Positions 9,860 to 31,378 of a stretch of 32,463 bases of DNA are shown piece by piece; within the stretch, counting starts at the first letter, position 1; each line of letters begins with the position of its first letter. Source of the stretch: Promethearchaeota archaeon (GTDB lineage: Archaea; Asgardarchaeota; Lokiarchaeia; Sigyniarchaeales; SOKP01); NCBI GenBank assembly GCA_004524535.1, contig SDNY01000032.1, positions 1 through 32,463 of the forward strand, written 5' to 3'. The notes beneath the pieces are model-generated. The model did no database searches. It was not told the origin of the DNA and saw only the letters and a list, made by a program, of their open reading frames with translations. Made by a program: the position numbers and the translations under genes.

Positions 9860-12241
9860 TTAGCCTTCTCGGCACAATCTTTTCAGTAAGGTAGGATCAA
9901 TTATCTCTTTTGGTTCCCAATTTTTACTTTTCAAATATTCCTGTATTTCAGACTTCAAATTGATTGGAATGTCAGCTTCAACGCGAATGTATTTTTCTAA
10001 ATCGGTTGGAAGGTCAACGCCTTTATATTTTCGTTCTAAGTCAATCCAATGAGATAATTTTATCATACGTCCTTTGGAATTATCAGCTGGCCTCAAACAC
10101 ATTTTAGCAACTAAACAAATTGCCTGTTCGATAGATTCGGCGGTTGTTAATAGGTGTTCAGGACAAGGACTAACTAAATGGTCGCCAGTGCCATCTCGTG
10201 CATTCCATACTTTCCATGTATCCTCATCATCAGTTCTACCTATATACATACGTCTGTATTCAGCTGAATGGGGTCCACATACTGCTGGAATACCCATTCC
10301 ATTACAACTACTTGCTATACTTGCTGCTTTTTGCGACATTGCGCCCCAGGCAACTCCACAAGCTCCAACTCGATTTAAGATATAATCCGCTATTTCTTCA
10401 TAATTACCTCTTAAAGGACGTCGAGCAAATATATTTGCAACTTTAATTGCCGCACCATTTATATGTGGATTTGAGACACATGAGCCTACATTAACTAACC
10501 CTCCTCGGTCGAAATCACCAGGATATCTATCATATAATGTCTTACCTTCTTCGTCTTTTACAAGACCTATATCCATAGCACCACAGCCAGACACTACAAC
10601 AATATAATTCCTATTGCAGAATTCTTCAGCCATTGTATATAATTCTTGGATTTCTTTTCCATAATTGGCACAACCGATAATGGCTACAATTCCAGGAATT
10701 TCTCCTAAGACGATCGGAGCCCCTACATTTCGAATTTCAGTATCCTGAATGGGACCACGCCCTACTCTTAGGTTGAATTTTTCGTTTCTAATCTTTTCAC
10801 GCCCTGCATACATAATTAGAGTGAGAGGTGAAACATCTTTCATGCATTCGGCTTCACATCTACCACAATCTAAGCATGCATCAAATGTGTCTGATAATAT
10901 GGAAAAATCTCCGTCCTTTGCAGCATTTACACCTGCAACTAGTGGAAGATCATTAGGACAATTTCTCTGGCAATTTCCGCAGCCATTACATCTCATTGCC
11001 ATATCTATACATCCTTGCTCATCTGGAACTGCGCTTTTACTCTTTCTAATTGGCCTTACCTTTATTGCCGTTTCTACTGCAACTTGCCCCGCTTTTACGG
11101 GATCTAAAATTAATACACCTTTAGCTTTTCCACTAACTAAATCGTCTACAATTTCATCAACCGGATCATCAGTTCTATCTGGTAATCCATTCATATTTTT
11201 CTCATTTGAAGCGATAAATGGTGCATTTACTAGTTGCGCTTGTTCAAAGCTTCTCAAGTTAACGCATTGCTCATCGACCATCACTACATCTGCTAACCCA
11301 GAACGAATGAAATGCATTTGACGGGCGAGAGAACCAACAACTTTAGCTCCACTGTAATATCTTGTTAAATCCAAAGCAGTACAACAGATTGCTCCTACAT
11401 CAACTTTGCTTTCATATCCCTTCTCCCGCATATAATCAACTAATTCGATTCCAGGTGCTACATTATGGCCAATCATTAAAATTGTAGCCTTATTTTCCGT
11501 ATCTAAAGTACCCATTCCCAATTCAACAATAGGTACATCAGGATCTCCTACAGGAAAACCATATGCAGCAATTTGAACGGCATCAGCTATTTCCATTCCA
11601 ACAGCATCACATAATCCCGCTAAGAAACTTTTTGATTCATAATCTAAATAACTTGATTCTTGACCAGTATGACCCGCCGCAAGAAGATGAGTAATATTGA
11701 ATTGAACCCATTTCATTGCTTCTTCCAAATCTTCTAACGTTTCTGGTTTCATCCCTACTATCAATCGTGTACATGGCATTTCTACAGCAATATTGTTTCC
11801 AAAATTTATTGGGACATTTCCGTATTTTTCTTTGAGCCAGTGAAGCAAGTGATCTCCGTGAGCGCTGTGGCACGAGGCCCCGATACAGCACGCAATCTCT
11901 ACTATCTTTGCACATGCCGTTTCTATATTAATACCACAAGCCCCTGTTCTTCCCTTTGAGAGGTTGCATTTACCGAAGGTACAAAGGCAACACATATCAC
12001 AAATTTACCCAATTATTCCAACAGAATAATTGTTTGGCATGTAATATGGCTTGTACCTCTCCATTAATTTGAAAAACCAATTTCGCAATGTTGGAATATG
12101 GGGCATTGGAGTTGGACCCATTGGCTCCCATTCAGTCTCGTCTCCGAAGCTTACTTTTCCTGTCGTTAATTCGAAGCCCTTAATACTTCCTAGTGGGCCA
12201 GAGTAAGAATCTATTTTTATTTTTGCGCCTTTTTTACTCAT
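9860..12241 (-). CDS. cdhA: CO dehydrogenase/acetyl-CoA synthase (ACDS) alpha subunit, gene interrupted by a 30-nt insert
   Basis: CdhA is the Ni-Fe-S CO dehydrogenase subunit of the archaeal acetyl-CoA decarbonylase/synthase complex in the Wood-Ljungdahl pathway. The chain shows the N-terminal cluster motif CCLCTFGKC, HSAHGDHLLH, two ferredoxin-like sets (CNGCGNCQRNC and CLDCGRCEAEC), and the C-cluster region around IGCANYGKEI and SGCGAMDIG. As read directly, an in-frame TAA at 12005-12007 splits it into 78 codons and a 711-codon remainder in the same frame. Dropping 12004-12033 joins 208 nt to 2144 nt and gives 783 residues, the usual CdhA length. The junction then reads YYMP-ICDMCC, matching the P-x-C-D-x-C-C pattern I recall in homologs. 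No other cdh gene lies in the window. The start MSKKGAKIKI has no clear Shine-Dalgarno sequence. Confidence 0.93.
12004..12033 (-). other. Candidate 30-nt BHB mini-intron inside cdhA
   Basis: On the minus strand the insert carries a perfect hairpin: CAATTATTC (12032-12024), loop TGTTG, GAATAATTG (12018-12010). Next to it, exon bases TGCC (12039-12036) pair with insert bases GGTA (12009-12006), giving four pairs including one G-U. An AAA bulge (12035-12033) separates TGCC from the hairpin. AATT (12005-12002) separates GGTA from the outer helix. The outer exon-exon helix is CATATTACA (12048-12040) with TGTGATATG (12001-11993), nine pairs including one G-U. Cutting AA^A and AA^TT, after the second nucleotide of each bulge, removes exactly 30 nt and restores the frame. 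This is the archaeal BHB layout, with the second bulge at 4 nt (or 3 nt plus a one-base bulge). Ends are ambiguous by 2 nt because AA/AAA flanks both sides. Confidence 0.8.
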
Positions 12242-12511
12242 TTTTACATCAAATTAATTTTTATTTTGTTTTTTTTTAATAATATTTAATCAAATTTTTG
12301 ATTTTATTAAAGTTATTCTATGGAGAATATATCTTTGAGAATTTAAAAGATATTTATTATATTCAAAAGCTTAATAGAAGAAATTTCAAATAATTTATGA
12401 GTGTGAAATTTCACTCAATGCGAAATTATAGTGAGTCAAATTAAAAACAAAAAGTTAAAAAAAATTGATTAATTTGGAAAAAGAATTTGCGTAAGATTCG
12501 ATTAAGCTAAC
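12242..12511. promoter_or_regulatory. Upstream region of cdhA with inverted repeats
   Basis: This is a 270-bp spacer between the V4R-like gene and cdhA, both on the minus strand. It is AT-rich and holds GAAATTTC near 12380, a longer inverted repeat at 12398-12417, and a partial TGAGTC-like copy near 12431-12437. I see no ORF or RNA gene. Confidence 0.45.
12398..12417. promoter_or_regulatory. Inverted repeat, possible operator for cdhA
   Basis: TGAGTG (12398-12403) and CACTCA (12412-12417) form a 6-bp inverted repeat around TGAAATTT. The centre also contains the 12-bp palindrome GTGAAATTTCAC. It lies about 157 bp upstream of the cdhA start and lacks a following T-run on the minus strand, so an operator is more likely than a terminator for the V4R-like gene. 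Confidence 0.4.
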
Positions 12512-13117
12512 TTATACGTTATATCTTTCCATATAATTTGAAATTGGGCCTGAATCTATCTCTGAATCAATATCCTTTGCGTCAAACTCATCTATTAACA
12601 AGTCAAATTTAAATATATCTGCTTCATCGTCTTTTAAAAAACACTGAACTTCTTCACCATCAGCATCGATTCCTATTTGTTCTAAAACCCCATTAAAAAT
12701 GCCTTGATAAAGAATACATATATTTTTTGCCATGATATTATCTTTTTCTTCTTGAGAGATAGGATTTTCTACAGAAATAAAGATTTTATCTTTTAAAAAG
12801 GCAGATGTTAAAATACCATATCCTAAATGCTCGAATGCGTCTAAGACGTTGATAATTACTTCCTTTTTATTAGATAAAGTTTCTTCACTCCAATTTGCGT
12901 CACCATATAATTTTTCAATAAAGTATTTTGCCACCGTTTTTCCAACCCATATGACTATATCTTCTGAATTTGCGCCTGCAAACTCTGAAAATTCAATTAA
13001 ATCAATTGGTCTTAACATTAATAACCTTAAATCTAAATCTCTAAAGAAAAGATGTCCTATACTATCATCGATGGTTATTTGCTCTTCTTTCTTAGATTTT
13101 TTAAATCTCTTAGACAT
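12512..13117 (-). CDS. Possible V4R-domain (Bet3/heme-NO-binding-fold-like) protein
   Basis: I do not recognise this 201-residue protein with certainty. After a Lys/Arg-rich first 12 residues it has the feel of a V4R domain: RPIDLIEFSEFAGANSEDIV, then VGKTVAKYFIEKL near residues 58-70, and a beta-rich C-terminal half with ICILYQGIFNGVLEQIG near 132-148. V4R domains bind small molecules or hydrocarbons and share a fold with TRAPP Bet3. The last 40 residues are acidic. It sits between cdhA and a longin-like/GTPase gene, all on the minus strand, with 100-270 bp gaps. No catalytic residues can be named. Confidence 0.4.
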   Translation of the reverse strand: MSKRFKKSKKEEQITIDDSIGHLFFRDLDLRLLMLRPIDLIEFSEFAGANSEDIVIWVGKTVAKYFIEKLYGDANWSEETLSNKKEVIINVLDAFEHLGYGILTSAFLKDKIFISVENPISQEEKDNIMAKNICILYQGIFNGVLEQIGIDADGEEVQCFLKDDEADIFKFDLLIDEFDAKDIDSEIDSGPISNYMERYNV

Positions 13118-13218
13118 AATTACTCTCTTTTATACTATTTTATTCAATAATTATTATTTATATCCTTAAAAATTTAACTTTTTTTTAAAAAAATAATTTA
13201 TAAAAATTTTATAAGAGA

Positions 13219-14241
13219 TTAAATTAGGTCAAATATCATTTCAGTTACGTTGTTAATATTGAAATTCGTCTTAACTGATGTAAATAGTAACTTCCATTCT
13301 CTATTGTCGATTTTTTCGAATTCAAAATATTCAATAATTTCCTTGGTAAGTCTACCAATTTTTTCTTTATTATTCTGAACGGAATGATCAAATAAATCGA
13401 TTTTATTAGCTAAAATCAATAAGGGAATTCCAAATAATTCGTATCTATTTATAATTTTCCAAAATTCTCTTTTTGACTCTTCGAATCTTATTTGATTTGC
13501 GACATCAATCATAAATATTATAATATTAGATTCTTGAAGTCCGATTAACCATTTATTCCTGAAAGAGAGTTGTCCTGGCATGTCCCATAAAGCTAAAATC
13601 CCTCTAGATTCATCCTGAATGTATTCTATATTAAATTTTCTCGTCGGAACAAAATAATTATCATTATATTTGCCCGTTTTTATCCTTCTTATTAAAGATG
13701 TCTTTCCTACTTCATCTAAACCAAAAAGAAATACCTTATTGAACGAATCATGGTAATGAAATTGAATTTCAGGATGTCTTTCCACATATTCATCTCCATA
13801 TCTACGAATATCAATAAACACTGTAATTAAGAAATTTTCGATTTCAATTTCATCTTTAAATGTACATATTTTTTCGATATTTAACAATTCGTTTAATAGT
13901 TCTTCAAATATGTCTTTATAATCGTAGGGATTATCTTCTTTATCAAGAATTAATCCAATAATGATCTTCCCGTTAATGCAAGTTGTATAAATATTTAAAC
14001 CGTCCATTATTTGAGGGACTGGAGTATCAATTAAATAAAGATAATTAGCGTTGTTGGACTTGCTAATTGATTTACGCGTTCTATATCTATGGATAAGATC
14101 GCCATGATCATGTCCATAAATTATTTTGCTGAGTTGATCTTTATCATCTATCGTAATAATGTCATTTGGATAACTGTAAATATTGAGTTGATCCAAATCT
14201 TGGAAATTTTTACCCTTAAGAAGAAAAATGTTGTATAACAA
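13219..14241 (-). CDS. ARF/Rag-type GTPase with N-terminal longin-like domain
   Basis: This 340-residue protein has two parts. Residues 1-155 alternate beta strands and helices (YNIFLLKGKNF, NYLYLIDTPVPQIMD, GKIIIGLILD) in a longin/roadblock-like manner. Residues 168-340 are a small GTPase: GLDEVGKTS at 174-182, PTRKFN near 199-204, WDMPGQ at 229-234, NKID at 279-282 and TSVKT at 321-325. The Gly-Leu-Asp P-loop and Pro-Thr switch I are ARF-like, while the size and fusion recall Rag/Gtr proteins paired with roadblock or longin partners. In eukaryotes such pairs act on membranes. Here one chain may carry both GTPase and its platform. No lipidation motif or membrane segment is seen. Confidence 0.8.
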   Translation of the reverse strand: MLYNIFLLKGKNFQDLDQLNIYSYPNDIITIDDKDQLSKIIYGHDHGDLIHRYRTRKSISKSNNANYLYLIDTPVPQIMDGLNIYTTCINGKIIIGLILDKEDNPYDYKDIFEELLNELLNIEKICTFKDEIEIENFLITVFIDIRRYGDEYVERHPEIQFHYHDSFNKVFLFGLDEVGKTSLIRRIKTGKYNDNYFVPTRKFNIEYIQDESRGILALWDMPGQLSFRNKWLIGLQESNIIIFMIDVANQIRFEESKREFWKIINRYELFGIPLLILANKIDLFDHSVQNNKEKIGRLTKEIIEYFEFEKIDNREWKLLFTSVKTNFNINNVTEMIFDLI

Positions 14242-14387
14242 TTATTATTTCAAGATTGTTAATTTCTTTAAGTGGGTAAATAAAAAATGTTTAAAAAATG
14301 TTTTGAATAAGATTTCTTATAATATGTTAAATCTTAATTAAGAAAATCATCGTAGATTTTTTTCAATTTAAAGGTTTCGCTTTATTT

Positions 14388-15839
14388 TTAAGAGGAGGAA
14401 TTTTCATTTTTTTTTGATCCACTATTTTTTGAAGATTCTAAGGATTCTGAAGGTTCTGTTTTATCACCTACCTCTTCTTTTGTATCTTTATCTTTGTCTG
14501 CCTTATCTTCTGGAGGGGGACTTGGTGTTGCAGAGGACGCAGATGACACAGGAGTGTTGCAAATAGGGCATTCAGACCACCCCTTCCTAAGACTATAACC
14601 GCATTTTACGCATTCTGTTAGGTCATTATCTGCTTCCCATTCAGGAATATCTGAAACACCTCCTTTTCTTTTACGAGCTAATTCCTCTAAATCTTCTTCA
14701 GTCCAGACTTCCATACCTTGAGGTATTCCGTCGGTTCTTTTTTCGGCCATCATTCTTAAATTTTCTTCAGTCCAAAATTCCATTCCTGGAGGAGGTGCTC
14801 CACCTCTTTGTTGGGCTGCTTCAGCAAGCTCTTCTACGGTCCAAGCTTGCAGTTCTTGACCTCCTGGGGTTCTTACAGTTCCTGTTGGCTGTGAAGGTAC
14901 TTGAGTTTGTATTCCGCCTGCTTTTTGAGAAGATGGGATCTCACAACACGCTGCTGAAAATTTTATCAATGCTTCAAAACATATTGCAAATCTATCTTGA
15001 TCATTTCCCTCGTCTATAATTAAAATTAATGAAGTATTATCATTAATTAAAGGAATTCCTATTCCACATACTGATGCATTAGAGTCGCGACTAGATTCTA
15101 ATCCACTGCGAATTTTCCCCATTGATGTTAATAAATCCCTTTTACTCATTAAAAAATCGCATATCGGGTCGCCGTGCCTCTGATACCCCTCATGATATTT
15201 TTCTAATTGGGTACTTGTCAATTTAGAATCCAAAGCCTTTATTATCGCACTTACGTAAGAATAGATTTGAGATTTTGGCTCTTTTTGAGAATCATCTAAT
15301 TTATACCCTTCTAAATCAAGATCACCCATAAAAGGCGCGAATAATGGCTCAGCATCCTTCATTTTACCGTAAATGATTGTTTTAGAAAGTAAACACTTGA
15401 TTTCTCCATAATAAGCTATTGAATTATCTAAAAAATTAACATTTTTTTTATCTATTACTAGTCGAGGCACGCTCCGAAATATAACGTCCACCCAAGGCAT
15501 TTCCTTAACAGGTATTATTGCTACACACGTTTTTTCAATTAGTTTACGTAACGCTTTCGAATACTCCTTAAACATCTGTTTTAATTCCTTTTGAACATCC
15601 TTGTATTGTTCTCCCTCTAATTCTTTCTCTGCTTTGACTAAGAAACTTTGAAATTTTTCTTTATTTTTTTTGAGATTTCCGCCTAATTTCTTAATTTCGC
15701 CAATAATATTATCTTTAAAAATGAAAGTAGCGTCTTCAATCAAATTATTTTGAAATTCAGTAAGTTCTGAATCTAAATACTCAGAAACATCAATCTGAAG
15801 ACTATTTATAAATTTTTCAAATAATTTTTGTTCTGCCAA
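14388..15839 (-). CDS. Unrecognised protein with 23-residue repeats, zinc ribbon and disordered tail
   Basis: I do not recognise the 483-residue protein as a whole. Residues 1-105 are helical and charged. Residues about 105-300 form a mixed domain that begins CVAIIPVKEMPWVDV and includes SLILIIDEGNDQDRFAICFEALIKF, perhaps a roadblock-like fold. Three tandem repeats of 23 residues follow, each starting W-T-x-E-x-L (W333, W356, W379). A zinc ribbon comes next: C410-x2-C413-x10-C424-x2-C427. The last 55 residues are rich in Ser, Pro, Glu, Asp and Lys and are likely disordered. This looks like an adaptor. The gene upstream is on the other strand, after a long spacer. Confidence 0.6.
   Translation of the reverse strand: MAEQKLFEKFINSLQIDVSEYLDSELTEFQNNLIEDATFIFKDNIIGEIKKLGGNLKKNKEKFQSFLVKAEKELEGEQYKDVQKELKQMFKEYSKALRKLIEKTCVAIIPVKEMPWVDVIFRSVPRLVIDKKNVNFLDNSIAYYGEIKCLLSKTIIYGKMKDAEPLFAPFMGDLDLEGYKLDDSQKEPKSQIYSYVSAIIKALDSKLTSTQLEKYHEGYQRHGDPICDFLMSKRDLLTSMGKIRSGLESSRDSNASVCGIGIPLINDNTSLILIIDEGNDQDRFAICFEALIKFSAACCEIPSSQKAGGIQTQVPSQPTGTVRTPGGQELQAWTVEELAEAAQQRGGAPPPGMEFWTEENLRMMAEKRTDGIPQGMEVWTEEDLEELARKRKGGVSDIPEWEADNDLTECVKCGYSLRKGWSECPICNTPVSSASSATPSPPPEDKADKDKDTKEEVGDKTEPSESLESSKNSGSKKNENSSS
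14640..14850 (-). repeat. Three in-frame 69-nt repeats
   Basis: These encode three copies of a 23-residue unit with the pattern P-x-G-M-E-x-W-T-E-E-x-L-x-x-x-A-x-x-R-x-x-G; the first copy is more diverged. The regular 23-residue spacing (W333, W356, W379) indicates tandem duplication within the gene. Confidence 0.7.
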
Positions 15840-16448
15840 TTATATTACCAATTTTAAATAGTTCATTTTTATTTCTAATTGTTCATAATTATATCAACGA
15901 GAACTATATAAAAATTTAATTAAAATAGATGAGCAATAATATTTTAATAAGTAGGGGTTGATTTAATTAAACGAATTTTTGATTCGTTTCGAGCTCCTTT
16001 CTAACAAACTTCTCTAAAAATAGTGTTCAATGGTATTTAAATATTATAAAAAAGATTTTCAACGATATATTAGAGAGTATCCCTAATATTTTTAATAAAT
16101 TATTAAGAGCAATAAAAATAATTAAAAAAAAATTTAAATTTTGAACTTCACTTTAAATTTGAGGAGAAGAGAATCTTTTAAAAAACATTAATCCAATAAT
16201 ATAAAACATTAATAAGAGAAAACATTTATAGGGGAAAAACAAAATTCACATATTAACCCGAAAAAAAAAACATTTAAATATCAATTTATAATAAATATTA
16301 TTATAATAAAATTTATCAAGAAGGCGGTTGTAAGTACCTTTCTGCAACAATTAATGTTTTTTAGTCCTATTTTCATATCAGTTTAAATTAGGCAGGCGTA
16401 AATGGACTATTTTCATTGGTTGTAGCAATAAAAAAATGGTGTTATAGA
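15840..16448. promoter_or_regulatory. Long intergenic region with hairpins and an RHH leader
   Basis: This 609-bp region separates divergent genes. It holds a perfect 8-bp hairpin at 15969-15989 and a weaker hairpin at 16327-16348 (GTTGTA with TGCAAC). The sequence GGTTGTA occurs at 16326-16332 and again at 16418-16424 just before the RHH gene, which would suit autoregulation. I searched by eye for tRNA arms and found none. A short non-coding RNA cannot be excluded. Confidence 0.4.
15969..15989. other. Perfect 8-bp inverted repeat with 5-nt loop
   Basis: AAACGAAT and ATTCGTTT pair perfectly around TTTTG. It lies 130 bp upstream of the 15839 start. The flanks do not form a BHB-type 4-bp helix on either strand, so I do not call it an intron. 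A regulatory site is the simplest reading. Confidence 0.4.
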
Positions 16449-16736
16449 ATGAAAATTGTAACTGTAAACGTTCCAGAATCTTATATAGACGCAATCGAAA
16501 AATTAGTAGGAGAAAATGGTCTCTACCCATCGAGGTCAGAATTAATAAGATGTGCCGTGCGCGAATTCTTGTTAAAAGAGTTAAGAATGGCAAAAAACAT
16601 GACCAAATATGATGAGACTAAAATTGACGATTTTGACAGCGAACATTTTGTGAGGATTCCAATAGAAAGTAAAGATAAAGAGGAACCCGTGCGTTCATTT
16701 AAAACCTATAAAATTCTCAGAAGGCTTGAAATTTAA
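16449..16736 (+). CDS. Ribbon-helix-helix (CopG-type) regulator
   Basis: The 95-residue protein opens with the RHH fold: a strand (KIVTVNVPESYIDAIE), then helices through YPSRSELIRCAVREFLLKEL at about residues 27-46. The P-S-R-S-E-x-I-R turn is the family hallmark and the N-terminal strand would enter the DNA major groove as a dimer. The C-terminal half is charged and probably contacts partners or a ligand. I chose ATG at 16449 because the fold begins there; an upstream TTG at 16416 would add residues unlike the family. A long leader with repeated GGTTGTA elements precedes it, and a hairpin plus T-run follows, so it is likely a single-gene unit. Confidence 0.85.
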   Translation: MKIVTVNVPESYIDAIEKLVGENGLYPSRSELIRCAVREFLLKELRMAKNMTKYDETKIDDFDSEHFVRIPIESKDKEEPVRSFKTYKILRRLEI

Positions 16737-16789
16737 AATTCTCAAAATTAAGGATTTGCATAAAAATATATAGTGTATGGCCATCTATT

Positions 16790-16817
16790 AGGGAATATCT
16801 CCCTTCTTTTTTTATTT
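16790..16817 (+). terminator. Hairpin plus T-run terminator after the RHH gene
   Basis: AGGGA (16790-16794) pairs with TCCCT (16800-16804) around a 5-nt loop. A run of T follows at 16807-16813, and a further T-run ends about 16822. It sits 53 bp after the RHH stop codon. Confidence 0.65.
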
Positions 16818-16822
16818 TTTTT

Positions 16823-17077
16823 GAAACTGACGCCTCAAATTTTCTGTTCAAAAAAAGGTTTTTTTTTTACATCAATATAAAATTTTTTCATTTTTTTATT
16901 TGTATTATTGTTGTTTTTTCACAAAATTTGAGTTAAGTTAAAAGAAATTAGAAGCTAATATTTATTAAATACAATTGTTAAATTAATTCTGATAATAAAA
17001 TAAAAACAGAATAACCCTAATAGATTTAATTTATAAAAAGATATAATTGAAGAGGTCCATAAAAGGAGGTTTTTTTT
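16823..17077 (+). promoter_or_regulatory. Promoter and ribosome-binding site of the GalT-like gene
   Basis: TTTATAAA at 17030-17037 is a good TATA box. AAAGGAGG, with core GGAGG at 17065-17069, is the strongest Shine-Dalgarno sequence in the window. It is followed after 8 nt by ATT at 17078. The TATA-to-SD distance would give a very short leader, which favours a start near 17078 over the ATG at 17129. Confidence 0.6.
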
Positions 17078-18346
17078 ATTTCGGTTAACAATGAAAAATC
17101 CGCTAAAGGAAGGTATACTCCTAAGTTTATGGAATGGGGGATTATTACTAATGAAAATTTCAAGTCAACTTACGATGTTCCGATAAAGAGATGGGATCCC
17201 TTATCTACAGTTTCTATTACTACAAAAGATTTTGGCCTTCGAAAAGAGCGAGTAAGATACTATGGTCATTATTCTTATATCTCCCCAATCCGGGGTGAAA
17301 GACCTAAGGGATTTAAGAGAGGAGAAATTAGCTATGAACATCTAGATTGTACAGAATATCCAATTGATGAAGTTAAAGACATATTTATGAGTATTTCTGA
17401 GGGAAAAAAAATATATTATAATGATGGAACTCCGATTGGAGATGGATTTACGATTATTGTAGCTGAGGATGAGAAAAGAAGAGATTCGCCTTTTTCAAAA
17501 ACACCTCATAAGATTGAAAAGATTCCTGATTCTTGTAAAGCAATTACTTTGATAAATCGATATCCTTCAATGGCTCGTATTGTGTCTCCTGAGATTAAAA
17601 CTTCAATGGAAGAAATTTTACCTGCTCATATAAAACTTGCACAGGGTATAAATTTGGTTACCATTTCAAGACATTTTTATCCTTCCCTATGTTTTAACTT
17701 AATTCCGGAAAATGTTTTGTTGGGCATTTTAATTTCAATGAAAGCTGCAATTCTTTACTCTGTTGAAGAGGCTATAGAAAGAGATTATTACGATATTCCT
17801 GTTTCACCTTTTTTTAATATAGGGACAAAAGCAGGGGGTTCACAACCTAGAATCCATGGTCAAGTTTATATAGATTTGAATATGGATGGTCATGGGTCAC
17901 GATTAGAGGGATATCTTAGAGCATTTAAAGAAATGGGTGATAACTGTCATCTATGTGAAACTACTCATGGAGATAGCGATCGAATCATTTTAAAAACTAC
18001 ATATTGGACTTTTTATACTACAGGAAGTCCCGTAAGAAATTATCACATAAGATTTCATCCAAACGAGCATATTAGAAGATTTAGCCAATTAAATGTCAAC
18101 CAATTACTTGATTTGGCAAAATCTTTAAAGATCATATTTGTAGCGTTAGACGATATTGAAGTTGATAAAAATCGAAATATTTTATTCAATTGCTGTCCTT
18201 TTGGATACAACGCGAATTTCCATTTATTTGCTGACATTATCCCACATGAGATAATTGGGGGTCTTGAGATGGCTGAGGATATGCGCGTTGCAAGAAAATT
18301 ACCTAATGAAGCAGCAAAAGAAATAAGGAGAGCAATTTCTGGATGA
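17078..18346 (+). CDS. Galactose-1-phosphate uridylyltransferase-like (HIT superfamily) protein, probable ATT start
   Basis: The 422-residue product resembles GalT, which swaps UMP between UDP-glucose and galactose-1-phosphate through a uridylyl-histidine. The GGSQPRIHGQVY segment matches the GalT active-site S-x-P-x-x-H-G-Q block, with the His as nucleophile. NCHLCE supplies a possible zinc C-x2-C pair, and NYHIRFHPNEH fits the second HIT repeat. It heads a sugar-metabolism stretch. The strong SD at 17065 with 8-nt spacing points to ATT at 17078, giving 17 residues (I/M-S-V-N-N-E-K-S) before the first in-frame ATG at 17129. The sugar specificity is not certain; an ADP- or NDP-sugar phosphorylase relative is possible. 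Confidence 0.72.
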   Translation: MSVNNEKSAKGRYTPKFMEWGIITNENFKSTYDVPIKRWDPLSTVSITTKDFGLRKERVRYYGHYSYISPIRGERPKGFKRGEISYEHLDCTEYPIDEVKDIFMSISEGKKIYYNDGTPIGDGFTIIVAEDEKRRDSPFSKTPHKIEKIPDSCKAITLINRYPSMARIVSPEIKTSMEEILPAHIKLAQGINLVTISRHFYPSLCFNLIPENVLLGILISMKAAILYSVEEAIERDYYDIPVSPFFNIGTKAGGSQPRIHGQVYIDLNMDGHGSRLEGYLRAFKEMGDNCHLCETTHGDSDRIILKTTYWTFYTTGSPVRNYHIRFHPNEHIRRFSQLNVNQLLDLAKSLKIIFVALDDIEVDKNRNILFNCCPFGYNANFHLFADIIPHEIIGGLEMAEDMRVARKLPNEAAKEIRRAISG

Positions 18347-18459
18347 GGAATTTACGATGGAATAATATTAATAAATAATGGATTATAAATTAAAAGAAGC
18401 TTGAATAAAATCCTTAGTTTTAAATCTATAAATTTTCTTATTATTAATAATAATAGAAT

Positions 18460-19623
18460 ATGGTTTCAACAATGACAAGAGAATGGTCTGCAATAATCCT
18501 TGCTGGCGGTAAAGGTTCTCGATTAATGCCATTAACATCGGAAATTCCAAAACCATTAGTGAAAGTAACTAATAAACCAATGATTGATTATTCTATAGCA
18601 CACTTGATATATGCAGATATAAAGCATATCATTCTCGCATTAGCATATATGGGCGAAGATATTAAAAAGCATGTTAAAAATACATGGACTCCCGATAAAC
18701 TCGGTGATGTTGAGTTAGAATGTGAAATTCATGATAGTAAAGGTACTGCGGACGCCTATAGATTACTAGCAGATAATATTGACTCGGAAAATGTTGTTGT
18801 CAGTATGGCAGATATAGTTACTTCTCTTCCAATGAAAGATTTTATGAGCTTTCATAAAGAAAAGAACGGTATTGCCACTATTTCAATGAAGATGGTTGAA
18901 AGCCATACTTCTCAATACGGGGTTGTTTTATTAGATAAAAATAGAAAAATTTATTTATTTTTGGAAAAGCCAATGCCTATGGAACTGTATTTAAGCAGCA
19001 TGGCACAAAGGACTGATTTGTTCCTACATACGAACATAATCAATACAGGAATTTACTGTTTTAAAAAAGATATTGGAGATATTCTTCATGAAACAGGATT
19101 AATAGATTTTGGCGGTGAAGTTTTTCCATATCTTCTTGAAAATAAATATGATTTGTATGGTTTTGTCAGAGATTATTACTGGATGGATGCTGGTAATTAT
19201 CAAACCTATATGTGGGCGAATTGGGATTTATTGAGGAAATATGCATGGCCAATTTCGCCAAATGGGGAGGAATTTGATGGAGTTTATGTCATGGGAATAA
19301 TTAATTCGGGTAAAGAAATAACTATTGAGAAACCAACTTGTTTTGGAGATTGTGTTAAGCTTCACAACAATGTAAAAATACGCGAATTAACTTCGATTGG
19401 AAGCAAGGTGACCATAGGAGAGGATGCTATAATAGAAAAAAGTGTTATATGGGATAACGTGAAAATAGGTCCTGGATGTTATATTAACGAATCAATAATC
19501 TGTAACGATTGTACAATCGGAAATAATGTTGTTTTAGAAAGAGTAATAGTACCTCCATATTGTAAGATTTCAAGTAATAACCAATTGAGAGATATGACAC
19601 TAGAAGTTGGAAAACATATATAA
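18460..19623 (+). CDS. Sugar-1-phosphate nucleotidyltransferase with left-handed beta-helix tail
   Basis: The 387-residue enzyme would join a sugar-1-phosphate to an NTP, releasing pyrophosphate. The signature ILAGGKGSRLMPLT near residues 12-25 and PKPLVKVTNKPM near 30-41 bind the nucleotide. VVSMADIV near 112-119 occupies the metal-binding position. Residues about 290-380 contain hexapeptide repeats (VTIGEDAIIEKSVIWDNVKI) of a left-handed beta helix. Mannose-1-phosphate guanylyl- and glucose-1-phosphate thymidylyl-transferases share this layout. A phosphomannomutase-like gene follows two genes later; together they match the two halves of fused bacterial guanylyltransferase/PMM-like proteins. 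An internal ATG at 18472 is an equally good start. Confidence 0.87.
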   Translation: MVSTMTREWSAIILAGGKGSRLMPLTSEIPKPLVKVTNKPMIDYSIAHLIYADIKHIILALAYMGEDIKKHVKNTWTPDKLGDVELECEIHDSKGTADAYRLLADNIDSENVVVSMADIVTSLPMKDFMSFHKEKNGIATISMKMVESHTSQYGVVLLDKNRKIYLFLEKPMPMELYLSSMAQRTDLFLHTNIINTGIYCFKKDIGDILHETGLIDFGGEVFPYLLENKYDLYGFVRDYYWMDAGNYQTYMWANWDLLRKYAWPISPNGEEFDGVYVMGIINSGKEITIEKPTCFGDCVKLHNNVKIRELTSIGSKVTIGEDAIIEKSVIWDNVKIGPGCYINESIICNDCTIGNNVVLERVIVPPYCKISSNNQLRDMTLEVGKHI

Positions 19624-19654
19624 TCTGATTTTTTCCGAATTACCTTTAAAAACG

Positions 19655-21370
19655 TTATTTTTTGGCAAACGGTTCAAGATCCAAATCCATAAACACGCCA
19701 TCGTTGGATTCGAGTGTTCCTAAAAAGTTCCATTCACCCTCATCTACATTTTGCCCACTTCCGTATTTTGAAGCCATATTATACAATCTCTTAAAGTTTT
19801 CGTAATGTAGCGCCACTCGATTTTCAGAGTAATCTCTTGCTGACCAAGTCGTTATTAAAAATTGCCAATCACTACTTTCCAAAAGTAATAGCTCTCGCAC
19901 CAATTGTTTTAATATTTTCGATAGATTCTCATCAGCCGAGTCTTTATATTTTGCAATTATCTCTTCACTTTTAGCTTCACACTCATAAATCTTCTCCCAC
20001 GTCCAAGTTGTCCATTCATTCAACCATACCCAATGACTAGAAGCCTGCCCCCACGAGCCTTCAATGATCTGTACAACTTTATTTGGCGGATTTTCTTCGA
20101 GATAAAGCCTGGTGTTAGTTAATTCTATCTCATCATCATCTTCTATCCATCTTAATACTCTCGCTAACCACCAATTTCCTTCAAACCACCAATGCCCAAA
20201 TAATTCACAATCATAAGGAGCAACAATAATTCCGTTGTTTCCAAAATTATTTTTATAATCTCTCAAGATATCCTTAACGAGATTAACATAATGACTTGCA
20301 TTTTCGTCAAGTTTTCCTGGAACATCCTCTGGCCAATACAACATTTTCGAACCCAAATCAATTTTAGGGCTAGTACACTTCCAATATCGTAAACCCCCAG
20401 GATAGTGCTTTTTATGAAAATCTAAATATTCAGCACAGCCAGGATAACCATGTTCACCTGACCATACAACAATCCCTGTCTTTTCATCCCTTGTAAAGAA
20501 TCCAACAGGGGCTGGGGTGGATGGATCTGTAGATACTAAATAGGCTTCATATTGTGATTTTTCAAAAGTAGTGGGAATTTCTTCATATTGCGATTCAAAT
20601 TGTTTCCATAATTCTGCAAGCAAAGGAAATCGCGCTGCATAAACACCTTGGGACTTTCCACCTAATAAAAGGGTAGTATCAACAAAAAAATATTTAAGAC
20701 CATTTTTAGCAACAAAATATTCAACACCAGGTCGTTCATACTCCTCGCCTGAAATAGGGTTTTTCCATCGATACCCAGGACGATACCCACATTCTGGAAG
20801 CCAAACTCCTGTAGGTGCCCTCCCAAAATGATGTTTATAATTATCAACTGCCGTTTTAAATTGAGCATCAATTGAAGTATCTTTGGATAATAACGGGCAA
20901 TATCCATGAGTAGCACCACATGTGATAATATCGATCAAATCCATATCTTGGAGTTTTTTAAAAGCACCAATGATATCTCTATTAAATCTATGAAGAAAAT
21001 CATCTCTTGTTCGTTCGAAGAATTCCTCCCACCATTTCGTAAGTCTAATCCTTCCTTCCTCGTATTTATTTTTCGTAAAATCGTCAAAATCATGGAGAGC
21101 AGCCCCTACTTTCTCGTCTAAGTAGTCGAGGAACCCATTAATGAAAGAGGGGTGTCTAAGCATTTCACATAATACTGGTGTGAGTCCAATAGTTAATTTA
21201 GGATGATAATCATCATCAATCAATTTATATAATTCTTGAAGCAGGGGGATATATGTCTCTGCAGCAGCTTCATTTACCCAACTAGTACCATGTGGCCAAA
21301 TACCGTGTCCCAAGACCCAGGGAAGGTGAGAATGTAATACAAGACAAAATGAGCCCAATATCTCTGGCAT
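19655..21370 (-). CDS. GH57 family 1,4-alpha-glucan branching enzyme-like protein
   Basis: The 571-residue protein starts PEILGSFCLVLHSHLPWV, the usual opening of GH57 branching enzymes. GVWLPECGYRPG around residue 210 of the chain carries the catalytic Glu nucleophile, and IVAPYDCELFGHWWFEG around 390 carries the Asp acid/base. The C-terminal DUF1957-like helical region has the aromatic ESSDWQFLITTWSARDY block. The enzyme adds alpha-1,6 branches to glycogen-like glucans. I chose ATG at 21370 because the family begins there; an ATG 45 nt upstream would add a basic, non-conserved stretch. It is convergent with the nucleotidyltransferase gene, 31 bp away. The branching activity is assigned by motif only. 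Confidence 0.85.
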   Translation of the reverse strand: MPEILGSFCLVLHSHLPWVLGHGIWPHGTSWVNEAAAETYIPLLQELYKLIDDDYHPKLTIGLTPVLCEMLRHPSFINGFLDYLDEKVGAALHDFDDFTKNKYEEGRIRLTKWWEEFFERTRDDFLHRFNRDIIGAFKKLQDMDLIDIITCGATHGYCPLLSKDTSIDAQFKTAVDNYKHHFGRAPTGVWLPECGYRPGYRWKNPISGEEYERPGVEYFVAKNGLKYFFVDTTLLLGGKSQGVYAARFPLLAELWKQFESQYEEIPTTFEKSQYEAYLVSTDPSTPAPVGFFTRDEKTGIVVWSGEHGYPGCAEYLDFHKKHYPGGLRYWKCTSPKIDLGSKMLYWPEDVPGKLDENASHYVNLVKDILRDYKNNFGNNGIIVAPYDCELFGHWWFEGNWWLARVLRWIEDDDEIELTNTRLYLEENPPNKVVQIIEGSWGQASSHWVWLNEWTTWTWEKIYECEAKSEEIIAKYKDSADENLSKILKQLVRELLLLESSDWQFLITTWSARDYSENRVALHYENFKRLYNMASKYGSGQNVDEGEWNFLGTLESNDGVFMDLDLEPFAKK

Positions 21371-21606
21371 AAAAACAAAAATACGTAATTTCTTAATAAT
21401 TTTGCCACATGCCAAAAATCTCTAGAAAAAACACAATTAATCGATTTAACTAATTCAAAATTGGATTTTTCATTAAACATTTGATTTCTTAAATACAGGG
21501 AAATTTTCTTTTTTTTTTAAAATAGAAAAATTTAAGAACTTAAACTATATGAAATTAGTAATACTTTCCAATTGAAATTGAAAAGAAAATATAAATATTT
21601 GATTAA

Positions 21607-22989
21607 ATGGTTGAAAATCTTAAAGAACTTACAAAGGACGGACGTATCATCGGAAGAGCTAATTATGTATTCACGCCAGAGATAGCAAGCAGCATCGGTT
21701 CAATTCATGGTAGTTTATTTAAGCAAAACGAATCTGTAGTCATGGGGAGGGATTATCATAACGATTCTCGAATGCTTAAGCGAGGATATACGTCAGGTTG
21801 CATGAGTACTGGAGTAAATCTGTTAAATTTATCAGATTGTGCATATCCTTTATTACAATTCACAATTAGAAGATTTGGAGCGAGTGGCGGTGCTTATTTT
21901 TCGGCAGGACATTTATATAGTGAAGATGTTGGAGTAAGATTTGTTGATGCTGGGGGAATTGAATTATCTTCTTTAGAAATTCAAAAAATAATTAATGCTT
22001 ATAATAATTACCCCGAACAAATACGTAGAGTAGATCCAAATGAAATAGGTCAAATAACCTCAATCCCTCAGACTAAAGAAATTTATATTAAATCTTTACA
22101 GCAATTTGTTAACAAGAAAAGAATACGAAATGAGGATCTTAAGATTGTAGTTGATTGTTCTTATGGTCCTAGCGGGAAGATTACGCCATTGTTATTAAAT
22201 GAGATTGGGGTAGAGGTTATTGCATTAAATACACATTATCGTCAGAGATCGAGTAATCCAGTTCCTAACATTCATACTATTAGAAACTGTGCAGATATAG
22301 TGAAAGCATCCAACAGTCATCTTGGTGTATGTTTTGATGTCGATGGTTCCAGAATTCTAGTATTAGACGAAAGTGGATTAGAAATAAATTTTGAAGATTT
22401 ACTAATGCTATTTATATCCTACGACGAAAGAATAACAAAATCTAAATCAAATACCATTATAACTACTCCTACAATTTCTTCAACCGCAAAAGAATTTATC
22501 AAAGAATCTGGATATCCATTAAAGGAAGTTCAAAATGATCCTGGAGAGATTTCAAGGCAAATTAGAGAAGAACGGGCGTGTTTTGCCGCAGCGGATACAT
22601 TAAAATTTTATTTTCCAGAATATGCTCCATTTAGCGATGGAAACTTCATTCTCTTAAAGCTGCTTGAAATTATGACGATTCAGGAGGATTTATTAAGTTC
22701 ATTAACTAGAGGGTTCCCTAAAGGGATAAAGATTAATAAATCAATTACAGTCTCTCAAGATATAATTGAAAATTTTCACAATCAATTAAGAAAGGTTGTT
22801 GAGGAAAATGGTTTTAAATATCATGACATCATAAATGAGTTAAAGATTATTGATAAGGAGCAAAAAATTTTTACTCAGGTAAAGATTTCTTTATACAGAA
22901 ATGCGATACTTCTTTCTGCAGAATCTGATGACGTTAACGCAGCAAAAACTATGATAACCGAGCTTGAGGAAATTATTACTAATTTATAA
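21607..22989 (+). CDS. Phosphomannomutase/phosphoglucomutase-like protein with degenerate active site
   Basis: The 460-residue chain follows the alpha-D-phosphohexomutase fold. VVMGRDYHNDSRML near residues 44-57 and the GASGGAYFSAGH region near 91-102 mark domain 1. In active enzymes this second site reads T-A-S-H-N-P, with Ser as the phosphate carrier; here it is S99-A-G101-H102, so the nucleophile position is Gly. The metal loop D-G-D-G-D-R is D244-V-D-G-S-R, with the third Asp replaced by Ser. The usual C-terminal R-x-S-G-T-E-P loop is absent. Mutase activity is therefore unlikely. Such degenerate PMM domains are fused to guanylyltransferases in some bacteria, so it may regulate or stabilise the enzyme encoded at 18460-19623. 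Confidence 0.78.
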   Translation: MVENLKELTKDGRIIGRANYVFTPEIASSIGSIHGSLFKQNESVVMGRDYHNDSRMLKRGYTSGCMSTGVNLLNLSDCAYPLLQFTIRRFGASGGAYFSAGHLYSEDVGVRFVDAGGIELSSLEIQKIINAYNNYPEQIRRVDPNEIGQITSIPQTKEIYIKSLQQFVNKKRIRNEDLKIVVDCSYGPSGKITPLLLNEIGVEVIALNTHYRQRSSNPVPNIHTIRNCADIVKASNSHLGVCFDVDGSRILVLDESGLEINFEDLLMLFISYDERITKSKSNTIITTPTISSTAKEFIKESGYPLKEVQNDPGEISRQIREERACFAAADTLKFYFPEYAPFSDGNFILLKLLEIMTIQEDLLSSLTRGFPKGIKINKSITVSQDIIENFHNQLRKVVEENGFKYHDIINELKIIDKEQKIFTQVKISLYRNAILLSAESDDVNAAKTMITELEEIITNL

Positions 22990-23119
22990 ATCAATTGTTA
23001 TAAAAAATATTCCTATTTTTTTAAATTCCTTTATAGAAGAATTAAAAGTTTAAAAATATGTGAGATTTAATAATAATAATATAAACTATATTAAATTAAA
23101 AAATAAAAAGATGTGAATT

Positions 23120-23821
23120 ATGGCATTAGATGCAGCTGGAATGATCTTATTAGTATCATTTTTTATAATATGGGGAGTCTTCCTGGCATGGGATTTCTTT
23201 CGTAGAATTTCATGAATCTCTCATGAAGTACGCAAAGGAGAAAAATATGGCTTCCTAGCTTACATATTGGCTGTAATTCCAGTTAATATGTTATGGGGCT
23301 ACGGTTTTAATATTTTAGGGGTTTATATTGTCCTTTTTGTATTATGGATAATTTGTCTTTTTCGTGATTTAATATTAGTATATGGCAAAACAAAAGAATA
23401 TGATGATATTTTGCTATTTTTAGGAATTGCAATTCTAGTTCAAGTAATTTTAACAGGAATATTGCCATATATGAATGAGCAAATGCAAAGTAATTGTGTG
23501 GCAGCCTGGGTCTTTTGGTTTCCTGATGTTTATAATCCAAATACAAATGCTATAAAAAGTTGGGTTAATGCTAACTATCTATTAGGATTTAGAGTAGCAG
23601 CAACAGGCATGGTAATATTAGCTATTTTACCAATGATCTTAGATTTATACTACACGGAAGAACATGTTAATCTTTTAGCAATAATTTTTATCGATTGTAT
23701 TTTTGTGGCCCCTTTTCTCTGGCTGGCATACGTTTGGATGGGAGGCATCGGTTGGCCATTGACTTTCTTGTTTGCGGTGCTTTTATTTATAGTTTTATTA
23801 CTATTAACAAGGGAGAGATAA
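23120..23821 (+). CDS. Multi-pass membrane protein interrupted by an in-frame TGA
   Basis: ATG at 23120 (GTGA-type SD upstream) opens MALDAAGMILLVSFFIIWGV, a first membrane helix, and runs 31 codons to TGA at 23213-23215. The same frame then continues without a stop to 23821 through about five more hydrophobic segments, for 233 codons in all. I do not recognise the family. The TGA lies inside a hairpin: TTTCATGA (23208-23215), loop ATCTC, TCATGAAG (23221-23228). Losing 27 nt (23207-23233) would give FFRR-KGEKYGFLAY; losing 30 nt (23206-23235) would give FFRR-GEKYG. A CGA-to-TGA nonsense change is the plain alternative. Translation from TTG at 23267 alone would lack the first helix. Confidence 0.6.
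23201..23235 (+). other. Candidate BHB-like element around the in-frame TGA
   Basis: CGTA (23201-23204) pairs perfectly with TACG (23229-23232). GAA (23205-23207) and CAA (23233-23235) are 3-nt bulges on opposite strands. The inner helix is 8 bp (one G-U) with a 5-nt loop. That is a canonical 3-4-3 BHB core. However, cutting at the standard GA^A and CA^A points removes 28 nt and breaks the frame, so a one-base-shifted cut (27 nt) or a shifted pairing (30 nt, one mismatch) is needed to keep the protein. The outer helix is weak (T-A, T-G, T-G). Confidence 0.45.
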
Positions 23822-29452: not shown

Positions 29453-29640
29453 TTTTCTCAATTAATTTATTTTTTAGAATTCATTTACTAATACTTATAA
29501 TTCCAGAACATTTCTCAATTAATATATTTTTTCAGAATCCATTTACTTATAATTTCGGAATCTGATTTCATCCATTTCAACTTACTTATGAAATCATCCT
29601 TTGATATTTTACTTAATTTATTTTTCTATATGGGTGAAAT
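29453..29640 (-). pseudogene. Tandem duplicate of the coiled-coil gene 5' end, degraded
   Basis: The 188-bp gap upstream of the coiled-coil gene contains two tandem copies of a ~57-bp block (29449-29507 and 29508-29562). A second copy of the gene's beginning follows (29561-29610, minus strand). That copy encodes S-K-x-D-F-I-S-K-L-K-x-M-K-S-D as in the intact gene, but its start codon is ATA instead of ATG and the frame soon ends. It is a remnant of a tandem duplication that included the promoter region. Confidence 0.65.
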
Positions 29641-30557: not shown

Positions 30558-30775
30558 TTTTTTTCTATTATTTTATGTATATAATATTAAAATTATTCAC
30601 TTAGTAATTTAAATAATTTCATATTAAATAAAGAGATTGCAGATTCATTATTTTAAATCAGACATTGATATTTAGACCAAAAAGGCTATTATATTGAAAA
30701 ATTCACATATTTGAATAAATAAAAGTTCTTAAGTTATTCAAAGGGTTAATAAATTATCCAAGATAATTCTACTTG

Positions 30776-31378
30776 ATGGAAAAAAAGGAAAACATTCAGA
30801 TTTCGCTTGATGATATAAACGAAGATGATATACCAGCCAAGATTCCAGCTAAATTTATTAATTCGAGAATTGTTATTTTTAATCCTCTTTATGCCTCTTA
30901 CTTATATGTGAAGGAAAAGTTTTTTGGCTCTCCCCTTGGAATAAGTAAGCCCCGTTTAGAATATTTCCATAAACCTTCAGAGTTGTCTGTTATTGAGGCT
31001 TATTACCTATTAGAAAAAGGTAAGATTACTATTTTTGATGTTAAAAGAGAGAAGGATCTTAATGCTAAGGAATTTTTTGAAATTGCCAAACAAATACACC
31101 ATAAATTTGAGGAAAAATACGTAATTTATAAAGATTTAAGAGAAAAAGGATATATTCCTCGACCAGGGTTGAAATTTGGAGCAGATTTTGTAGTATATAA
31201 GAAAGGCCCCGGATTAGAACACTCTCCCTTCATTGTACACGTATTACCTCATGATTCTAAAATTAGTGCAATTGATATGGTCAGAGCTGGCAGATTAGCT
31301 ACATCAGTTAGAAAAAAATTTGTTATCGCAAATCCCCAAACTATAAACTACTATTTCTTTACGTGGTTTAAGCCGTAA
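30776..31378 (+). CDS. endA: tRNA-splicing endonuclease EndA
   Basis: This 200-residue protein is the archaeal tRNA intron endonuclease, which recognises the bulge-helix-bulge motif and cuts within both bulges, leaving 2',3'-cyclic phosphate and 5'-OH ends. The catalytic domain holds YKDLREKGYIPRPGLKFGAD, the catalytic Tyr at 141 (DFVVY), His at 149 (EHSPF) and Lys at 180 (ATSVRKKF). The length fits the short, homotetramer-type enzyme, which in other archaea prefers strict 3-4-3 motifs. A TTG three bases upstream of the ATG is in frame, but ATG is the better start. Its presence makes cutting of the cdhA BHB-like element possible in the same cell. Confidence 0.95.
   Translation: MEKKENIQISLDDINEDDIPAKIPAKFINSRIVIFNPLYASYLYVKEKFFGSPLGISKPRLEYFHKPSELSVIEAYYLLEKGKITIFDVKREKDLNAKEFFEIAKQIHHKFEEKYVIYKDLREKGYIPRPGLKFGADFVVYKKGPGLEHSPFIVHVLPHDSKISAIDMVRAGRLATSVRKKFVIANPQTINYYFFTWFKP

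Follow-up and report, generated by a model that had tools for sequence, protein, structure and literature searches.

Short inserts in protein-coding genes of a Lokiarchaeia genome are very probably BHB introns

Introduction

How can a gene that is interrupted by a hairpin with an in-frame stop codon still encode a full protein? The question arises twice in the window, by which we mean the whole 32,463-nt stretch of DNA analysed here, contig C100 of a genome (G000) of 3.66 Mb and 99% completeness. Among named genomes, Candidatus Lokiarchaeota MAGs are its closest relatives. A preliminary description noticed that inserts in two genes of the window share one geometry, and proposed a family of small BHB introns in mRNA that gene callers would read as split or truncated genes. 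The crenarchaeal cbf5 pre-mRNA has a BHB intron that is cut between bulge nucleotides 2 and 3 by the tRNA-splicing endonuclease (PMC2738675). According to Yokobori 2009, archaeal pre-mRNA splicing was confirmed for cbf5 only and other introns were predicted. Here we find with high confidence that archaeal BHB introns interrupt the protein-coding gene in both cases, and we describe their counterparts in this genome and in related genomes.

Results

Two 30-nt inserts with a common fold

The first insert lies on the minus strand in cdhA, whose identity was confirmed by a family search. Its frame begins at the ATG at 12241, meets a TAA at 12007-12005 and is open again down to 9860. The candidate 30-nt BHB mini-intron (ACAATTATTCTGTTGGAATAATTGGGTAAA, 12004-12033) separates exon 1 (12034-12241), placed from the spliced protein's homology with CdhA and a hand reading of the BHB, from exon 2 (9860-12003), which matches CODH/ACS subunit alpha (TIGR00314, 976 bits). 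The second lies on the plus strand in a membrane-protein gene whose frame runs from the ATG at 23120 to a TGA at 23213-23215 and is open again up to 23821. Here the candidate 30-nt BHB mini-intron (AATTTCATGAATCTCTCATGAAGTACGCAA, 23206-23235), recognised from homologs, from its identity in genomes G003 and G004 and from a covariance-model match, divides exon 1 (23120-23205) from exon 2 (23236-23821). In both genes the insert with its stop is the sole visible defect. The length first given, 27-30 nt, narrows to exactly 30 nt for both, and the in-frame stops, the stem of 8-9 bp (nine pairs in each) and the 5-nt loop are as first described.

The two inserts follow one plan. One intron nucleotide completes the 5′ bulge and is followed by the 9-bp stem with its 5-nt loop; four intron nucleotides then pair with the four in the exon that precede the 5′ bulge, and after them comes the 3′ bulge. 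In cdhA, exon 1 ends with an arm of the outer exon helix (12048-12040), the pairing element c1 (TGCC, 12039-12036) and the bulge nucleotides AA (12035-12034). The intron supplies the stem arms (12032-12024 and 12018-12010) around the loop (12023-12019), and then c2 (GGTA, 12006-12009), the partner of c1. For the cdhA region, minimum-energy folding gives this BHB structure, with a 9-bp outer exon helix and a 4-nt 3′ bulge. In the membrane gene, c1 is TCGT (23200-23203) and the bulge AG (23204-23205), and stem arms at 23207-23215 and 23221-23229 enclose the loop at 23216-23220. The 4-bp central helix claimed for both is complete in cdhA (4/4 pairs) and has three of its four pairs in the membrane gene.

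Comparison with homologs places the inserts exactly. Nearly all CdhA homologs read uninterrupted through the site (YMP-ICDMCC), where the window has ten extra codons, and the nucleotide comparison with G004 reveals a clean 30-nt insertion. This cdhA insert of the window is known from a single assembly; cdhA of G003 and G004, two genomes of the same genus, is without it. The membrane-gene insert, letter-for-letter identical in G003 and G004, corresponds to ten codons that are missing from the homologs outside these two genomes. Splicing after bulge nucleotide 2, in keeping with the rule known for BHB cuts, would restore MPICDMCC in CdhA (CCAA^TTTG) and FRRGEKYG in the membrane protein (CGTAG^AGG), whose closest uninterrupted homolog, from G002, reads FRRGEKWG. 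The same cut likewise restores the conserved protein in rpo1N, cdhD and rnhB. Stop readthrough or recoding, for instance of TGA as selenocysteine, would instead leave the ten extra residues in the protein. Selenocysteine machinery is described in Lokiarchaeota, and the membrane gene does have a TGA. However, the cdhA stop is TAA, the stops vary by gene among TAA, TGA and TAG, several inserts shift the frame, and homologs are missing the ten residues; we give recoding almost no weight.

Further probable introns in the genome

At least six further such introns occur in this genome, in cdhD, rpo1N (two), rnhB, a histone gene and the HMG-CoA synthase gene, which makes eight in total. About 1.07 Mb of the 3.66 Mb was read as stretches, and the whole genome was searched with a covariance model. 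A geometry scan that retained only ORFs closed when unspliced and open when spliced ranked the two window inserts highest in the first 508 kb, where it also found cdhD (C8) and rpo1N (C17), and then gave rnhB (C98); each of these three is 30 nt long. Comparison with relatives added the second rpo1N insert (31 nt) and the histone insert (29 nt), and the covariance model the HMG-CoA synthase intron (C165), which G003 and G004 carry as well. An unbiased genome comparison with G004 returned clean 29-30-nt coding insertions matching the BHB plan. The location in the first third of the gene, described for the window inserts, does not extend to the cdhD and histone introns. No other full copies of the introns were found in about 770 kb of the genome. 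At window position 29538 there is also a 71-nt intergenic insertion relative to G004.

The geometry exceeds chance. Under strict settings, ORF-breaking hairpins with a 3-nt bulge and a 5-nt loop numbered five in 925 kb, against about 0.3 per cell for 55 decoy geometries; in an earlier decoy table with loose thresholds, signal and noise were inseparable. Some strict-scan matches were rejected once their ORFs and the sequences known for the families were inspected. One at the end of an aRF1-like gene and one at a U32 peptidase beside a methyltransferase reflected adjacent genes; a match in an ammonium-transporter gene was in the wrong frame, and one in ValRS was normal coding sequence. Nor do we claim a covariance-model match on C30 (E about 3) or a 30-nt match at G000:C89:9219-9270 (E 0.05), where the ORF is open spliced or unspliced and which may be a stop-free intron or chance. 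A 32-nt BHB-like candidate at L108:12359-12390 joins two long ORFs of unknown family.

Complementarity between intron and exon

Spliced alignment to homologs and the covariance model together gave a set of 28 introns. Their central helices form 100 of 112 pairs, against 54.2 expected (s.d. 4.9, maximum 71 in 5000 shuffles) when the intron letters are permuted and sliding between equivalent registers is allowed for real and shuffled introns alike. This strong complementarity supports the proposed family of small, gene-splitting BHB introns in mRNA. In a gap-free alignment of ten ungapped 30-nt introns in equal 52-nt contexts, the hairpin is 95.6% paired, the central helix 87.5% and the outer exon helix just 54%, near chance; the covariation score is 0.94, compared with at most 0.29 when the partners are slid. 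Single sites can be followed across genomes. At the cdhA site the c2 variants GGTA (G000), GGCA (G031) and GGTG (G047) are kept, and at an rpo1N site the variable third position of a Gly codon (GGG, GGT, GGA) has a matching intron nucleotide in every genome. The rnhB site covaries in the same direction, more weakly. Irregular members have three of four central pairs, 4-nt bulges or imperfect stems, and for a G004 rps11 insert the register needed to restore the protein gives poor pairing.

Shape is the most strongly conserved property of these introns, and there is a sequence signature too. The 3′ bulge is mostly AA^A or AA^T among the 28. Among the first 25, the apical loop is ATTTC in seven and AATTC in three, and ATTTC is present in eight, where shuffling predicts 1.5. 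The two window inserts are unrelated in sequence, as first noted, but this does not hold across the family, where the loop is often AUUUC or AAUUC; two examples could not have revealed this signature.

Recurrence in relatives

Introns of 29-36 nt (rarely 50-65) occur in relatives too, at shared or different sites and with compensatory changes. The cdhA site (MP^I) has inserts in G031, G047, G035 and G055, and the first three have additional insert sites; most of the insert lengths in the relatives' cdhA are not multiples of three. In rpo1N, inserts lie at GHFGH^IEL or no more than a few nucleotides away in G000, G003, G033, G012 and G018, and at DEDG^L in G000 and G049, and G146, which belongs to another Asgard family, has one at a neighbouring site; introns at one rpo1N site have quite different stems in close relatives. 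There are three insert sites in cdhD and one in rnhB, the latter always with 30 nt (G000, G002, G008, G011). In G004 a BHB-type insert of 30 nt, which includes an in-frame stop, lies in a GH57 branching-enzyme gene (L309:12035-12064); the homolog in the window (19655-21415, minus strand) is without it, so that presence varies within one genus, and the rps11 insert of G004 is also 30 nt long. Group I and group II introns were set aside, as their ribozyme core takes hundreds of bases and the inserts only 29-65 nt. Apart from these introns, a TAG interrupts the frame of rpo1N in another Asgard archaeon (L327, G118) at a residue that is F in the homolog; no insert accompanies it, and it reflects an error or recoding and no intron.

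This recurrence bears on the possibility that the inserts are assembly errors or marks of decaying genes. The assembly is fragmented and MAG-like, and in-frame stops are typical of both. However, inserts recur at the same sites in assemblies made independently, three genomes share an identical membrane-gene insert, and the genes are otherwise intact and in many cases essential (rpo1N, rnhB, cdhA). We regard error or decay as extremely improbable.

A link to tRNA introns

The covariance model was trained on ten mRNA introns only. In this genome it recovered its five members and one verified new intron, that of HMG-CoA synthase; in relatives it found tRNA introns and, at a single rnhB site, three new introns. 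This genome-wide search with controls adds to the support for the family. The tRNA-gene matches are 30-nt inserts in L355, L362 (G009) and L357 (G063), around 1512-1541. When the insert is removed, ARAGORN calls a tRNA-Glu in L355, and its call in L357 changes to a tRNA-Cys of normal length; for L362, which resembles a T-loop intron, it gave no tRNA call after removal. Two of the three have the ATTTC loop, and standard tRNA calling misses or misnames such genes. Other model matches, with E between 0.0008 and 0.02, are candidate mRNA or tRNA introns (G051:C25:55269, G045:C24:35604, G059:C92:15022, G023:C37:65966, G042:C33:22257 and G053:C197:10179).

The tRNA matches matter for the choice between splicing and programmed translational bypassing, in which the insert would stay in the mRNA and the ribosome would hop over the hairpin. 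Such elements exist: phage T4 gene 60 and the byp elements of yeast mitochondria carry short hairpins within coding sequence, which the ribosome skips with the help of matched codons. Short stop-bearing hairpins in coding sequence are equally compatible with hopping and with splicing. Only in the membrane gene does the codon before the gap (CGT) resemble the last codon of the gap (CGC); cdhA has CCA before the gap and TAA at its end, and therefore no matched landing codon. Furthermore, bypassing does not lead one to expect a 4-bp exon-intron helix, the bulge positions or members of the same model in tRNA genes. With the tRNA-gene matches as the best evidence, the mRNA introns are probably substrates of the tRNA-splicing pathway, and we consider ribosome hopping very unlikely.

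The genes for such a pathway are present. The window itself encodes the catalytic subunit of the tRNA-splicing endonuclease (endA, 30773-31378, plus strand; TIGR00324, PF01974), in which the catalytic triad Y, H, K is seen by eye. Its closest solved chains are 3p1z and 3ajv, which we take to come from Aeropyrum pernix. An endA paralog without the catalytic histidine is on C84, and RtcB is on C101. Two unlike EndA subunits point to the hetero-oligomeric type, which the title of Yoshinari 2006, as cited in PMC12397907, links to archaeal pre-mRNA splicing.

Discussion

At the level of sequence, the exact insertion, the restored proteins, the BHB geometry, the covariation, the recurrence, the match to tRNA introns and the EndA and RtcB genes are all established, and from them we infer that the introns are cut out, the exons joined and the spliced mRNA used. 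In the mechanism we propose, the pre-mRNA would adopt a structure in which two 3-nt bulges flank a 4-bp helix, with an exon helix on one side and the 9-bp intron hairpin on the other. A heteromeric EndA would then cut each bulge after nucleotide 2, and RtcB would ligate the exons.

More tentatively, the mini-introns may form a moving population common to tRNA and mRNA genes, gained repeatedly at the same and at new sites with a fixed size and the AUUUC loop, a reading that we hold to be possible but doubtful. An excised 30-nt intron might, for instance, be reverse-spliced and then copied back into DNA, and either the endonuclease or a protein that works with it could keep size and loop fixed.

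In Lokiarchaeia, which are closely related to eukaryotes, core genes contain many of these introns, and the presence of an intron varies between species of one genus. The group offers a view of how mRNA introns are gained and lost by a non-spliceosomal route, and the colonisation of mRNAs by tRNA-type introns becomes a directly testable question. Since gene callers truncate or split intron-bearing genes, Asgard gene sets would be partly wrong.

BHB introns as such are known. What appears to be new is their occurrence in an Asgard archaeon as a population of uniform 30-nt introns in the coding sequence of several genes, many with the AUUUC loop. Our search of the openly accessible literature, with few subscription papers and bioRxiv preprints, turned up no BHB introns reported for coding genes of Asgard archaea. 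The Lokiarchaeia introns resemble T4 gene 60 and the byp elements in being hairpin inserts that would stop translation, but those have no BHB and no members in tRNA genes. With archaeal tRNA introns they share the BHB plan, as one covariance model matches both the mRNA introns and the tRNA introns of relatives; the host RNA here is an mRNA, however, and the splice must preserve the reading frame. Intron-rich tRNAs have been reported in other Asgard archaea, the Atabeyarchaeia and Freyarchaeia (PMC11291895). The 5′ UTR of Haloferax HVO_1309 contains a BHB intron that is likewise an mRNA substrate of EndA, but lies in an untranslated leader, unlike the coding introns of Lokiarchaeia; its 2020 report names cbf5 as the sole other archaeal mRNA BHB intron (PMC7714728). 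The cbf5 intron is alike in lying in a coding gene, in having a BHB at the junctions and in being gained and lost among relatives, and its splicing was shown by cDNA (PMC2738675); splicing of the Lokiarchaeia introns is predicted from sequence. The cbf5 case concerns one gene in Crenarchaeota; in Lokiarchaeia there are many genes, with introns of mostly exactly 30 nt and a recurrent AUUUC loop.
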